From assembly GCA_025699075.1 (NCBI GenBank), contig JAILWG010000003.1, forward strand, positions 62,001 through 126,000: a DNA stretch of 64,000 nt. The letters are read 5' to 3'. The stretch comes from Candidatus Nitrosopumilus sp. GTDB taxonomy: Archaea; Thermoproteota; Nitrososphaeria; Nitrososphaerales; Nitrosopumilaceae. Each line of letters starts with the position of its first letter. The stretch's first letter is position 1. The position numbers were made by a program, and so were the translations under genes. Below are positions 68 to 27,818 of this stretch, one piece after another. The notes beneath the pieces were generated by a model. That model was not told where the DNA came from, ran no database searches, and was given only the letters and a program-made list of their open reading frames with translations.

Positions 68-1402
68 ATGAAACAAAACACAACAATGTTTGTAGTAGTG
101 GGAGTAATCATTGGATTCAGTATTGCATTTGCAGCATTTATTCAATCACCAGAAATTCAAACAACCATTGCCGACTCATCTGAGATTTATCCAAAATTTA
201 CAAATCCTAATCCTAAGACATTATCTTATACGTTAATTGCTCAAGACGCTGAAATTGAAGTGTCACCTGGCATACAAGCTAAAGTCTGGACGTACAACGG
301 AACAGTTCCTGCACCAACTTTGAGATTTTCAGAAGGTGATGATGTTACTGTAAAATTTGTAAACGAAACTCCTTATGCACACACAATCCATTTTCATGGA
401 ACACATGATTCTACAAATGACGGTGTTTTTCCACAGATAATGCCTGGTGAGGAGTACACGTATCGTTTTGTTGCACATGAAGCTGGCATGTTCATGTATC
501 ATTGTCATGCATTTCCAACATCAGAGCATGTAAGAATGGGAATGTTTGGTGCAATGATAATTGATCCTGCCATACGTCCAATGGAGCCAGCACGAGAATA
601 CTTTTTCACTCTAAGTGAGTTTGATCCTAATAATGCATTAGAATACTTTACAGAATTTTATCCAATTAACGGCTATGCAAATCAATACATGGACAATCCA
701 ATCAGAGTTGTTTCAGGAGAGTTAACTCGATTCTATGTGGTTGGAATTGGAGGAGTTTTGCAATCTCCCTTTCATGTTCACAGTACAATAATGAAAGTAT
801 ATCCTTCAGGAATTTTATGGAACGAGCCATACTTTGCACAGACACATCTGATTGGAAACGGTGATACGGCAATTATTGAGGCAACATGGGATACTCCAGG
901 AAAATATTTGTTCCATGTGCATGGAATTCAGGAAGAACGTGGCTCCATGGCAATAATTGAGGTGTTAGAAGATGCATCATCATTATCTAAGATTCAAACT
1001 CCTAGTAACAACAAAGGAAGCTATTCCATGATAGAGTGGCAAGAAGATTTGATAAAATCATTGGAACAACCACAACTAATCTCGTATGATAACCTGGGAG
1101 AAGTAAAAGTTAGTGATGTTCCTAAAGTAAAGACAGACAAAGTAGACATTGTAAAGGATTCATGGAATCCAGATATTGTGGAATCATATGATCCTCTTGC
1201 AATCGAAATTGAATCAGGAACAACTGTTACATGGACAAACCAGGACTTTGTTGTACACACTGTAACTGACAAGGAAAATTCATTTGATTCAGGATTCATT
1301 CAGGCAGGAAAAACTTGGTCATATCAATTTGAAAATAAAGGAGAATTGGATTATTTCTGCACTTTACACCCTTGGATGCAAGGAACTGTCACAATAACCT
1401 AA
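68..1402 (+). CDS. NirK-like multicopper oxidase fused to a C-terminal plastocyanin domain
   Basis: Secreted, membrane-anchored copper enzyme of 444 residues. Residues 8-25 form an N-terminal hydrophobic anchor. Cupredoxin domain 1 (about 50-165) carries a type 1 site at H105, C146, H154 and M159, plus type 2/3-type histidines H110, H145 and H147. Domain 2 (about 170-300) has HVH pairs at 236-238 and 283-285. A third cupredoxin domain (about 350-444) has its own type 1 site, H397, C431, H434, M437, with the signature YFCTLHPWMQGT. Ammonia-oxidizing archaea carry relatives usually annotated as copper nitrite reductase NirK. The position matching catalytic Asp98 of bacterial NirK is His108 (motif HFHG), and four HxH pairs are present, which also fits a two-domain laccase-type oxidase with a trinuclear site. 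Substrate is therefore undecided. The next gene follows after 13 bases, so they likely form an operon. ATG start follows a GGAGAA stretch. Confidence 0.9.
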   Translation: MKQNTTMFVVVGVIIGFSIAFAAFIQSPEIQTTIADSSEIYPKFTNPNPKTLSYTLIAQDAEIEVSPGIQAKVWTYNGTVPAPTLRFSEGDDVTVKFVNETPYAHTIHFHGTHDSTNDGVFPQIMPGEEYTYRFVAHEAGMFMYHCHAFPTSEHVRMGMFGAMIIDPAIRPMEPAREYFFTLSEFDPNNALEYFTEFYPINGYANQYMDNPIRVVSGELTRFYVVGIGGVLQSPFHVHSTIMKVYPSGILWNEPYFAQTHLIGNGDTAIIEATWDTPGKYLFHVHGIQEERGSMAIIEVLEDASSLSKIQTPSNNKGSYSMIEWQEDLIKSLEQPQLISYDNLGEVKVSDVPKVKTDKVDIVKDSWNPDIVESYDPLAIEIESGTTVTWTNQDFVVHTVTDKENSFDSGFIQAGKTWSYQFENKGELDYFCTLHPWMQGTVTIT

Positions 1403-1415
1403 ACATAAAACTGAA

Positions 1416-1799
1416 TTGAACATCTCAAAGTTCTTAAACATTGCAACAATGGCGGTTGTCTTGTTGTTTTTTATTGGAATAATTTCATTTGAATACAAAG
1501 TAATAGGTCTTGCAGAACCACTAATCAGTTTACCCACAGAATGGAAACCATTTTTTGACATTCTATTATGGCCATTAATTATACTGTTAGTGTCTGATTT
1601 AGTTATAAAATATAGAAAAGTCAATGATCCAAAAAAATTCGTAAAAAAATATTGGATTGATATTGTAATGTTGGTTTTGATTCCAATTTTTTCGGCATTC
1701 AAATTTTTGAAGATAGGAGTAAGTTTGGTTAAGAAACTAAAAACATTAAAAATGGGTACAAAAGTTATTCATAAAACAAGAAAATCATTAAAAAAATAA
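1416..1799 (+). CDS. conserved small membrane protein downstream of the oxidase
   Basis: A 127-residue protein of unknown function with two or three hydrophobic segments (about 10-30, 45-62 and 82-102) and a Lys/Arg-rich tail, so it is probably an integral inner-membrane protein with the basic end in the cytoplasm. The best start is TTG at 1416, since the only nearby ATG (1449) would cut into the first membrane segment. It follows the oxidase by 13 bases. A close paralogue sits at 15363-15746 in the same position behind a deleted oxidase, which shows that the two genes travel together. A role as membrane partner of the oxidase is inference from this linkage. Confidence 0.8.
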   Translation: MNISKFLNIATMAVVLLFFIGIISFEYKVIGLAEPLISLPTEWKPFFDILLWPLIILLVSDLVIKYRKVNDPKKFVKKYWIDIVMLVLIPIFSAFKFLKIGVSLVKKLKTLKMGTKVIHKTRKSLKK

Positions 1800-12579: not shown

Positions 12580-13050
12580 TTGTCTGAAATTTATTTTGCG
12601 GCATTATCCTTAGTTCTAACTATTTTTCTATATTTTCTTACAAGGCATATTATAAACACAAAATTAAATGAACTGCAAGGATCTGATAAACTGCTTGGCA
12701 TGTTGTTAATATTCATAATTTTAGGCGAATTTGTTTATCTTGGAACAATGTTTGGTCTCTTTGATCTCGCACTAGAAGTAATAACTTCTATTGGTGCTGT
12801 TGCTGTTGTGTTTGGTATTGCATTACAAAACCAATTAAAAAATGCCATATCTGGAATTAGTATCTTTTTGAGCCCTCAGATCAACGTAGGTGATTCTATT
12901 GAATTTGACTATGTTAGATGTACCATCACTGGATTACATCTTACTAAAGTTACAGCAACTACTGAAGATGGAACAAAAATAATAATTCCTAATCATAAAC
13001 TAAGTGAAGAAATGGTACAAATCTTTTCTAAAAATTCTAAAATCAGGTAA
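12580..13050 (+). CDS. short MscS-like mechanosensitive channel protein
   Basis: A 156-residue protein with a TTG start. Three hydrophobic segments (about 3-22, 40-60, 64-90) are followed by the MscS pore-helix pattern (GIALQNQLKNAISGISIFL) and the beta domain (VGDSIEFDYVRCTITGLHL). It stops just after IIIPNHKLSEEMVQIF, so the C-terminal alpha/beta cage of about 100 residues found in standard MscS is absent. The stop codon lies inside copy 2 of the dispersed repeat, which suggests truncation by the repeat, though naturally short versions exist. Confidence 0.8.
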   Translation: MSEIYFAALSLVLTIFLYFLTRHIINTKLNELQGSDKLLGMLLIFIILGEFVYLGTMFGLFDLALEVITSIGAVAVVFGIALQNQLKNAISGISIFLSPQINVGDSIEFDYVRCTITGLHLTKVTATTEDGTKIIIPNHKLSEEMVQIFSKNSKIR

Positions 13051-13080
13051 GAATTGGACAATATTTTCTGACTAATCTTT
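13039..13080. repeat. dispersed repeat, copy 2 (partial)
   Basis: Forty-two bases that match the 3' two thirds of the 61-bp repeat (1811-1871; 27728-27788). The left third is missing. It overlaps the last codons and stop of the MscS-like gene: the TAA at 13048-13050 belongs to the repeat. Confidence 0.75.
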
Positions 13081-13214
13081 AAAATTAATCAAAAAAGACC
13101 TTTAGGGATTCATATTTTTCATATTGTGAAACAAGTTGTTTAAATTCTTAATGTCTTTGCTGTGATGTGAAAATTGAATATGATAAATTTATTATTAGAT
13201 TCTTTGTCTTTACA

Positions 13215-14934: not shown

Positions 14935-15023
14935 TTGTTCCTTGAGTAAAATCTAAGAAATAATACATTTAAGATGCTTTCAGGTAATTTGCATAGTTAT
15001 GTTGTTTCTGAGCATGAACTCTA

Positions 15024-15041
15024 GTCAGCTATTTAGCTGAC
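15024..15041. promoter_or_regulatory. operator-like palindrome GTCAGCT-N4-AGCTGAC
   Basis: A perfect inverted repeat with 7-base arms and spacer ATTT. A version with the same spacer length and one mismatch in 8-base arms lies at 20306-20325 before another small membrane protein. Both sit upstream of an identical-length promoter block. It is 52 bases before the ATG at 15076. Confidence 0.6.
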
Positions 15042-15075
15042 CATGCCTTATCATCTTATCATAATATCTATAATC
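15040..15075 (+). promoter_or_regulatory. promoter block shared with the gene at 20379
   Basis: Thirty-six bases running from ACCATGCC to CTATAATC directly before the ATG at 15076. The region 20343-20378 begins with the same octamer, ends with the same octamer and has the same length before its ATG. This fits a promoter for a leaderless mRNA with a conserved start region. Confidence 0.55.
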
Positions 15076-15165
15076 ATGCGAGAACAATATTTCCCTAGAC
15101 ACGAAAGATATTGTGAGTTTTTTTCACAATGTTCTCGCTTTACACTAATGGAGATAATATTATGA
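15076..15165 (+). CDS. 29-residue microprotein, overlapping the next start
   Basis: ATG 15076 opens a 29-codon frame (MREQYFPRHERYCEFFSQC and ten more residues) with two cysteines six apart and many aromatic and charged residues. Its TGA overlaps the next ATG (ATGA at 15162-15165), a sign of translational coupling. The promoter block directly before it supports this start. Several inverted repeats lie inside it. Function unknown. Confidence 0.5.
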   Translation: MREQYFPRHERYCEFFSQCSRFTLMEIIL

Positions 15166-15278
15166 ATTTAGCACTAAAACAAAAAGTAAAACTTACCATG
15201 CCTCGCCACAAAAAGGCATTTTATGGATTCTATATCATTACAGCTGTTTCTATAGTGGTATTATCTTTGGTGTTATAG
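15162..15278 (+). CDS. 38-residue single-TM protein of the oxidase locus
   Basis: Starts MNLALKQKVKLTMPRHKKAF (basic, cytoplasmic) and continues into one membrane segment of about 17 residues ending LSLVL. The 3' part of an almost identical gene opens this window at 1-55. In both places it is directly upstream of the oxidase start. It could be a small subunit or assembly factor for the oxidase complex; this is inference from synteny. Confidence 0.7.
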   Translation: MNLALKQKVKLTMPRHKKAFYGFYIITAVSIVVLSLVL

Positions 15279-15290
15279 GGGAAAAATAGG

Positions 15291-15349
15291 ATGAAACAAA
15301 ACACAACAATGTTTGTAGTGGGATGCAAGGAACTGTTACGATAACCTGA
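15291..15349 (+). pseudogene. deletion scar of the multicopper oxidase gene
   Basis: The first 29 bases of the oxidase reading frame (as at 68-96) are followed directly by the last roughly 30 bases (as at 1372-1402), so about 1.28 kb is missing. The join falls at a short shared GGA/TGG microhomology and shifts the frame, leaving 17 codons to a TAA at 15342-15344; the original stop position is TGA 15347-15349. The flanking genes on both sides are intact paralogues. Confidence 0.85.
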
Positions 15350-15362
15350 ACATGAAACTGAA

Positions 15363-15746
15363 TTGAATATTTCAAAGATCTTAGACATTGCAACAATGAT
15401 AGTTGTATTGTGCTTTTTTATCGGCATAATTTCATTTGAATACAAAGTAATAGGTCTTGCAGAGCCGCTAATCAATTTACCAAAAGAATGGAAACCATTT
15501 TTTGACATTTTGATATGGCCATTAGTTGTATTATTGGTATCTGATTTAGTAATAAAATATAGAAAAGTCAATGATCCAAAAAAATTTGTAAAAAAATATT
15601 GGATTGACATTGTAATGTTGGCTTTGATTCCAATATTTTCTGCATTCAAATTTTTAAAAGTAGCAGTAAGTCTAGTTAAAAAATTAAAGGTGTTCAAAAT
15701 GGGAACAAAGGCTGCATACAAAACAAAAAAATCATTAAAAAAGTAA
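15363..15746 (+). CDS. conserved small membrane protein, paralogue of 1416
   Basis: A 127-residue protein with TTG start, the same length as and highly similar to the product of 1416-1799 across all membrane segments and the Lys-rich end. The reading frame is intact although the oxidase before it has been deleted, so it is either still useful or recently freed. Homology to copy 1 ends about 12 bases after the stop. Confidence 0.8.
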   Translation: MNISKILDIATMIVVLCFFIGIISFEYKVIGLAEPLINLPKEWKPFFDILIWPLVVLLVSDLVIKYRKVNDPKKFVKKYWIDIVMLALIPIFSAFKFLKVAVSLVKKLKVFKMGTKAAYKTKKSLKK

Positions 15747-16085
15747 TTCTCTTGCATTGACAATAATTTTGTAATAATCAGCTTCAGGCTCTGTACTGAT
15801 TAACAACAATTCCTTATTTTCAAGTGGAATAGTAATCATTGTAACTTTGTCATACTCAATCACTGCTGATTTTTCGTTACCTATCTTGTATGATAGGTTT
15901 GCATGCTTTTCAGATCTGTCCAATGTATAATGAATTGACATCATCATCTCCTCTTTGCTTAGGAATTTTTCTTCGGGATTCTTGGAAATGCTTGCAATTA
16001 GTTCACTTTTTGCATTCGTAACTCCGCAAAATCGAATTTTATTATCAAAACTTAGGATTTTTTTACAGATGCCTTCATAATCCAT
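15735..16085 (-). CDS. roadblock-like (DUF6659-type) protein
   Basis: A 116-residue protein with the same order of strands and helices as the protein at 6322 (IRFCGVTNAKSELIASI; KVTMITIPLENKELLLIS). Its 3' end overlaps the membrane protein on the other strand by 12 bases. Probably cytoplasmic; no partner is visible. Confidence 0.65.
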   Translation of the reverse strand: MDYEGICKKILSFDNKIRFCGVTNAKSELIASISKNPEEKFLSKEEMMMSIHYTLDRSEKHANLSYKIGNEKSAVIEYDKVTMITIPLENKELLLISTEPEADYYKIIVNARELLF

Positions 16086-20059: not shown

Positions 20060-20272
20060 CTATGGTATGGATGATATTTTATTTTTAGACATATTTGTCT
20101 CTGAAATTACCTGACTCTGATTCATGTCTGTCAGTCTGCATAACAAATGAATCTGTTCTTCTGATTCAAAATGACATTTTTTACAATCTAACTTGATAGG
20201 TTTATCACAAATGGAGCATGCTTCTATGATTGTTAATTCTATTCCGCATTTCCTACAACTGTCTATTCTCAT
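20060..20272 (-). CDS. seven-Cys/one-His zinc protein, family with 27499
   Basis: A 70-residue protein with C-x2-C-x9-C-x2-C-x7-C-x2-C-x8-H-x2-C, enough for two zinc sites. The protein at 27499-27681 has exactly the same spacing. The C-terminal tail is polar. Probably a protein- or nucleic-acid-binding treble-clef type domain; function unknown. Confidence 0.7.
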   Translation of the reverse strand: MRIDSCRKCGIELTIIEACSICDKPIKLDCKKCHFESEEQIHLLCRLTDMNQSQVISETNMSKNKISSIP

Positions 20273-20305: not shown

Positions 20306-20325
20306 GGTCAGCTGCATAGCTTACC
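20306..20325. promoter_or_regulatory. operator-like palindrome GGTCAGCT-N4-AGCTTACC
   Basis: An inverted repeat with one mismatch and spacer GCAT. It is the counterpart of 15024-15041. Its centre lies about 63 bases before the ATG at 20379, against about 43 at the other locus, a difference of 20 bases or two helical turns. Confidence 0.5.
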
Positions 20326-27681: not shown

Positions 27682-27727
27682 TTTTTTTTATTTTCAAATC
27701 CTAACTCAAGTTCAAATTATTTTGTTT

Positions 27728-27788
27728 TGTCCAATAAAGTACAAAAAATCAGGTAAGAATTGGACAATATTTTCTGACTAATCTTTGG
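27728..27788. repeat. dispersed 61-bp repeat, copy 3
   Basis: Full-length match to 1811-1871 with two mismatches. Here it lies upstream of the small membrane protein at 27819, ending 30 bases before its TTG. In the other two places it lies at the 3' end of a membrane-protein gene. Confidence 0.8.
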
Positions 27789-27818
27789 TTTTTATTACCA
27801 TTTTTGAAATTTTAACTA

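Follow-up and report, generated by a model that had tools for sequence, protein, structure and literature searches.

Why would a genome that carries one complete multicopper oxidase operon keep a second copy from which the oxidase has been cut out? Among the candidate components of ammonia oxidation in archaea are copper oxidases, and to our knowledge little is known about their control in ammonia-oxidizing archaea. The locus that raises the question lies in a stretch of 64,000 nucleotides (the window; contig C3, positions 62001-126000) of a Nitrosopumilus-type genome, a metagenome assembly of 1.44 Mb in 7 contigs that is 85% complete. For the main comparison we use the closest relative found, Nitrosopumilus sp. 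8_1_Jan_SF_Bin66 (G036, NZ_JAOULD010000004.1; hereafter SF_Bin66). Our preferred answer, to which we give a probability of about 0.68, is that copy B, a divergent second version of the operon, lost its oxidase through a 1,273-bp deletion at a microhomology and persists as a live operon of two membrane-protein genes, under a regulatory head that it shares with the complete copy A.

A deletion scar in the second copy

Copy A opens the window on the forward strand with the 3′ end of sm38 (1-56; the gene begins at -61, beyond the window edge, with its operator and leader at -223 to -79), followed by the multicopper oxidase (68-1402, forward strand) and a 127-aa membrane protein (1416-1799, forward strand). 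The oxidase, of 444 aa, consists of Cu-oxidase_3, Cu-oxidase_2, and a plastocyanin-like C-terminal domain; its Cu-oxidase domains score well above the curated cut-offs (95 bits against 21 for PF07732, 63 against 20 for PF07731), and the protein falls below every NCBIfam equivalog cut-off, namely those for nitrite reductase, CueO, and laccase. Copy A is the only occurrence of this oxidase clade in the 85% complete genome. Elsewhere, the complete genome G053 has three oxidase copies (C1:15405, 1382125, and 1900338) of equal bit score and identity, which suggests a recent multiplication, and in G014 (contig C126, locus L125, 8433-9726 and 13571-14446) a leader and sm38 precede an oxidase split into three frames, with a second oxidase copy nearby at the contig end.

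Copy B matches both ends of this arrangement. In a first BLASTN comparison, positions -233 to 96 of A aligned with 14991-15319 at 95% identity (6e-149) and 1374-1835 with 15321-15781 at 85-86% identity (7e-139). The pairing proposed by the first-pass annotation, of 15224-15319 with 1-96 and of 15320-15746 with 1372-1799, is thus correct, and the homology begins about 230 bp further upstream, which for copy A is beyond the window edge. Reading the junction directly, GGA (101-103) is fused to GGA (1374-1376), and 1,273 bp of the oxidase are gone, in agreement with the earlier proposal that the enzyme was excised at a short microhomology; one GTA of the two-repeat GTAGTA at 92-97 is also absent from B. 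Because 1,273 cannot be divided by 3, the two ends meet out of frame: roughly the first 10 codons of the oxidase are joined to the last 9 or so in an ORF of 17 codons (MKQNTTMFVVGCKELLR; 15291-15344, forward strand), which stops 18 nt ahead of the next gene. The cupredoxin domains with their copper ligands are therefore absent from copy B, where about ten codons of each oxidase end are left. The genes on either side, described earlier as intact, do have unbroken frames: sm38 (15162-15278, forward strand) encodes a single-TM protein of 38 aa identical to that of copy A (dN 0, 3 synonymous changes), and the gene of the 127-aa membrane protein (15363-15746, forward strand; TTG start) shows a purifying pattern.

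Origin of the two copies

SF_Bin66 has one full locus, including the oxidase, and its 127-aa gene is 92.7% identical to that of B and 87.5% identical to that of A. The protein tree groups B with SF_Bin66 (99/97) and leaves A outside, and a nitroreductase module lies downstream of both the SF_Bin66 locus and, in this genome, copy B. Judged from this tree, the 127-aa genes of A and B are separated from before the split from SF_Bin66. The informative sites of leader and sm38 favor instead a grouping of A with B (8 vs 4 vs 1), so that the locus, on the evidence of its two parts, is a mosaic. Gene conversion between A and B would be the simplest reading of this mosaic, though the sites are few. Divergence from SF_Bin66 at synonymous sites is 0.75 across 29 backbone genes, 0.34 for the oxidase, and 0.35 for the 127-aa gene of B (dN 0.02), and the lower values at the locus suggest that it has passed from one lineage to another, or else that it is constrained.

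The same comparison bears on whether the short locus could be an artefact of assembly, a chimera or a collapse of copy A. This is a metagenome assembly, and A and B share a 330-bp stretch at 95% identity, from which such an error might arise; yet left and right of the junction B departs from A (by about 5% and 14%), and it has its own flanks. Nor could a collapse of A yield a 127-aa gene that is sister to the one in the full locus of a different species. We consider an artefact very improbable.

Since both ends of the oxidase survive as a scar in B, and the full locus of SF_Bin66 has the 127-aa gene that is sister to B's, copy B has lost its enzyme secondarily. The first-pass annotation had proposed a duplication of the locus followed by clean loss of the enzyme; secondary loss with retention of the neighbors stands, but a plain locus duplication does not fit the 127-aa tree, the mosaic, or the genomic setting. 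Local tandem duplication as the whole story is ruled out by the tree and by the structure of the island that holds both copies.

That island adds 40.7 kb (C3:49052-89781, window -12948 to 27781) to a backbone that is otherwise collinear with SF_Bin66. In SF_Bin66 the site is empty, C7:34250-34261 joining the two flanks, and the 12-bp repeat ATCTTTGGTTTT found at both ends of the island is single there. At the left edge lies a gene for a 463-aa integrase-like protein (C3:49099), which matches a Phage_integrase protein of G002 (9e-20) and itself has no direct Pfam or PHROGs hit. ParB and TFIIB genes are present within the island, and no conjugation genes were recognized in it. A repeat resembling an element end occurs three times on the forward strand: directly after copy A, which terminates exactly at it (1798-1879), as a partial copy (13039-13085), and at the right boundary of the island (27715-27796). 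The right-end sequence was also found at the same chromosomal site in three other genomes (G024, G010, and G003). The single locus of SF_Bin66 lies at another site, in a 4.35-kb insert (C7:46628-50982, against C3:36662-36674 here) flanked by a 13-bp direct repeat (TTTACATTCAAAA) that is single in this genome; no integrase or transposase was seen in that insert. Thaumarchaeal multicopper oxidases are often carried on integrated mobile elements (Krupovic et al. 2019, PMC6563490), and the empty site, the repeats, the integrase-like gene, and the reused right end together fit the accretion of mobile elements as described there. The island is thus probably an array of integrated elements.

Putative operator and promoter

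Beyond what had been annotated before, the region upstream of sm38 contains a putative operator, an RNA leader, and an upstream ORF that is probably coupled to sm38. The regulatory head begins with a first module made of a palindrome (GTMAGCTNNNNAGCTKAC) and a TATA-like box. In copy B, the palindromic operator is GTCAGCTATTTAGCTGAC (15024-15041, forward strand), and the putative TATA-like position (15046-15051, forward strand), placed by alignment and by a fixed 35-nt spacing, reads CCTTAT where most relatives have GGTATAT. Four operator sites occur in the 1.44-Mb genome, with a count of 0 for the reversed control pattern: one before A, one before B, one at 20307-20324 (forward strand) between a zinc-ribbon gene (20060-20272, reverse strand) and genes for a 54-aa protein and a nitroreductase (forward strand), and one at C5:86321. 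Across the genus the count is 0-4 per genome, and the sites that we inspected belong to the same modules.

The distance from operator to the ATG of the hairpin leader is exactly 35 nt (36 in two cases), and a spacing of exactly 35 nt also separates the operator from the start codons where the hairpin is missing, namely in genes for a zinc ribbon, a 49-aa protein, an RHH protein (G002), and an oxidase (G017). From this common spacing we infer a transcript start at the A of the ATG, which points to leaderless messages for the hairpin-less genes and, for the others, messages that would start with a hairpin beginning in AUG. No base pair of the operator hairpin varies, and we thus take the operator part to be read as DNA and not as RNA. 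As for what may bind it, an ArsR/HVO_A0261-like HTH protein is encoded beside the nitroreductase, next to the operator modules (L036, 7705-8514, and relatives), and is a first candidate for the regulator.

A hairpin leader and a probably coupled upstream ORF

The leader, of about 63 nt, starts with ATGCGAGAAC and contains a CCCTAGAC motif and a U-rich inner loop. In copy B it forms a predicted hairpin (15078-15138, forward strand) with an outer stem (GCGAGAAC/GUUCUCGC), an inner stem with the U-rich loop, and a CCCUAGAC motif in a bulge. Among relatives in which sm38 is clear (17 loci), all but two or three distant ones have the element of operator and leader upstream of this gene, and a covariance model finds it in 20 of 120 relatives, all in one genus. 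The folding z-score is -3.7 for copy B and between -3.3 and -4.5 for single leaders. Among 23 leaders, pairing is kept in 97.9% of cells, and 15 two-sided changes are seen against 4.1 in shuffled alignments (0/500); four pairs have changed on both sides, and the inner stem contributes most of the support. An alternative hairpin in B (ACAAUAU/AUAUUGU) is, judged by eye, not kept in relatives. The leader has no Rfam match at the gathering score (with no E value below 1.9 in the region) and no match in IMG/VR, so that carriage by viruses is unsupported, and with the search terms used we found no papers on a leader RNA of this kind in these archaea. The conserved structure with covariation argues that the leader, which is not in Rfam, is a structured cis-regulatory RNA, its regulatory action being predicted from this conservation.

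The leader also contains a reading frame. In copy B, an upstream ORF of 29 aa (MREQYFPRHERYCEFFSQCSRFTLMEIIL; 15076-15165, forward strand) begins at the predicted transcript start, and its TGA overlaps the start codon of sm38 (ATGA), with a Shine-Dalgarno-like GGAG ahead of sm38 (15150-15153, forward strand; read directly) that most relatives share. An overlap of this kind (ATGA or TTGA) is present in 19 of 21 leaders, the exceptions being G070a and G060, as against 0 of 42 control frames and about 13% of shuffled leaders. In the 19 coupled leaders the start-to-start distance varies from 80 to 170 nt and is always 2 mod 3, the upstream ORF usually having 27-31 codons, and the coupling precedes four gene families: sm38, zinc ribbon, the 127-aa protein, and a DUF4377-type protein. 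These counts come from related genomes, yet the varied lengths and downstream genes make a single inherited accident unlikely. In G057, the upstream ORF and sm38 share one open frame, and the resulting fusion overlaps the 127-aa gene. The second half of the encoded peptide is unconserved, as its frame varies by species group while the RNA motif is constant; a role of the leader as a gene for a conserved peptide is ruled out for that half. The product, which may be irrelevant, seems less important than the frame and the point where it ends.

It is conceivable that the upstream element acts only as DNA, as operator and promoter, and that neither hairpin nor frame has a role in RNA or translation. 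The occurrence of operator and TATA-like box before leaderless genes without a hairpin would agree with this. However, the hairpin is kept through compensatory changes and sits at the predicted 5′ end of the message, and the stop/start overlap recurs despite varying lengths and different downstream families, so that we regard a DNA-only element as improbable.

A model in which the element works at both levels could run as follows. A regulator would bind the palindrome that precedes the TATA box, and transcription would begin 35 nt downstream of the operator, at the A shared with the AUG. Ribosomes could then initiate on this leaderless AUG and translate the short ORF through the 5′ hairpin with its U-rich loop, stop at its UGA, and restart at the overlapping AUG of sm38. 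In copy B, the 17-codon remnant of the oxidase might hold ribosomes on the message between sm38 and the 127-aa gene, and the success rate of coupling or read-through would depend on the hairpin with its CCCUAGAC motif.

Small membrane proteins without the oxidase

Can this arrangement do without the enzyme? Leader and sm38 occur without the oxidase in at least nine relative species. They stand beside or before zinc-ribbon genes in six genomes (G030, G051, G059, G012, G070, and G060), before another gene in G069, and before the 127-aa gene, in a native and scarless order, in G057 and G049; in G070 a second leader lies directly 5′ of a 127-aa gene. Scars of a lost oxidase were looked for in G069, G057, and G049, and none were found. 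Across such varied partners, the constant part consists of the regulatory head with the small membrane proteins, and the oxidase is one of several passengers. In relatives the short arrangement is native too, and it does not come from loss alone.

The native operons of G057 and G049 would also favor the view that the short locus is ancestral and that the oxidase was inserted later into copy A. For copy B this is ruled out by the scar, as an oxidase-free ancestor could not hold some ten first and nine last oxidase codons in the right places, and a full oxidase is present in B's nearest relative; we think it hardly credible. Relatives do have a short order of their own, but B came to it by loss.

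A more serious alternative is that copy B is a decaying leftover, its oxidase lost recently as copy A supplies the enzyme, and sm38 and the 127-aa gene intact for lack of time. One oxidase copy may well be enough. A parallel case exists at C5:86321 (locus L173, 1233-1990, compared with L172), where a second module of zinc ribbon, operator, 54-aa gene, and nitroreductase has lost the body of the nitroreductase (about 745 bp, removed at a 5-bp ACAAT microhomology), while its neighbors are unbroken and 93-100% identical, as a general decay of redundant copies would produce. Together with copy B, this makes two modules under the same operator gutted of their enzyme, each in one of two copies. Against decay, the 127-aa gene of B has diverged from that of SF_Bin66 (dS 0.35) with few amino acid changes and an unbroken frame, and the oxidase-free arrangement is also in use in relatives. 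The B-specific changes in this gene comprise 12 synonymous and 5 non-synonymous ones, a ratio at odds with neutrality (P = 1e-5), although part of this purifying signal may predate the deletion. Moreover, copy B keeps operator, leader, coupled ORF, GGAG, sm38, and the 127-aa gene, which together make it probably a live, regulated operon. We therefore consider decay unlikely, albeit the strongest of the competing accounts, and prefer the reading of copy B as a working operon. The earlier suggestion that the two neighbors have a function of their own is strengthened by the oxidase-free relatives, the scarless operons, and the purifying pattern: both proteins very probably work without the enzyme.

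What that function might be is hinted at by the 127-aa family, which has three long helices and invariant lysines spaced 3-4 residues apart in the last one. PF00520 (Ion_trans) is hit, weakly to moderately, by 7 of 25 family members (best E 1.7e-4), copy B not among them. A sequence search against PDB returned no match for the 127-aa protein, and a Foldseek search against PDB no significant fold (best E 2.7), with voltage-sensor structures frequent among the non-significant matches. The family may be related to the voltage-sensor domains of ion channels, which we offer as a lead.

A broader picture would be a genus-wide Nitrosopumilus regulon, with 1-4 sites per genome where it is found, in which an operator, a leaderless upstream ORF, and a hairpin that is not in Rfam feed small membrane proteins or copper oxidases by stop-start coupling, with head and membrane proteins as the conserved unit and the enzyme as a passenger that can be exchanged. 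We see the chances of this as evenly balanced. In either case, the locus points to a concrete operator, a previously unlisted leader RNA, and a coupled upstream ORF ahead of copper oxidases, as well as to two families of small membrane proteins that are retained whether the enzyme is present or not. All of these could be tested in cultured Nitrosopumilus or with archaeal reporters.

Comparison with known systems

The oxidase of copy A shares its Cu-oxidase_3, Cu-oxidase_2, and plastocyanin-like domains with thaumarchaeal multicopper oxidases of the NirK-like two-domain type with a plastocyanin-like domain, and like many of them it lies in a mobile island (PMC6563490); copy B differs in having no oxidase, and copy A in staying under the NCBIfam equivalog cut-offs. 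With the cryptic integrated and ICE-like elements of Thaumarchaeota (PMC6563490), the island has in common the empty site, 12-bp repeats, integrase-like protein at the edge, ParB, and TFIIB, along with a repeated right end that occupies the same chromosomal site in other species. Unlike those elements, it has one integrase-like gene for three right ends, and in this it is array-like or composite-like.

The 127-aa protein resembles voltage-sensor and Ion_trans (PF00520) proteins in the matches of some of its homologs and in the regular lysines of its last helix, but it has no pore domain, and copy B itself has no PF00520 hit. Leader and riboswitch families in Rfam likewise combine a structured 5′ leader, a conserved internal motif, and covariation, whereas the present leader is unmatched among them, confined to one genus, and contains an ORF coupled to the downstream gene.

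Coupling of this kind has a counterpart in bacterial attenuators, in which translation of a leader peptide or upstream ORF is coupled to the gene that follows. Here too, a short ORF is laid over a hairpin and overlaps the next gene at an ATGA. In contrast to the bacterial cases, the present system is archaeal, its AUG would be leaderless at +1, and the second half of its peptide is unconserved while the RNA that encodes it is conserved.
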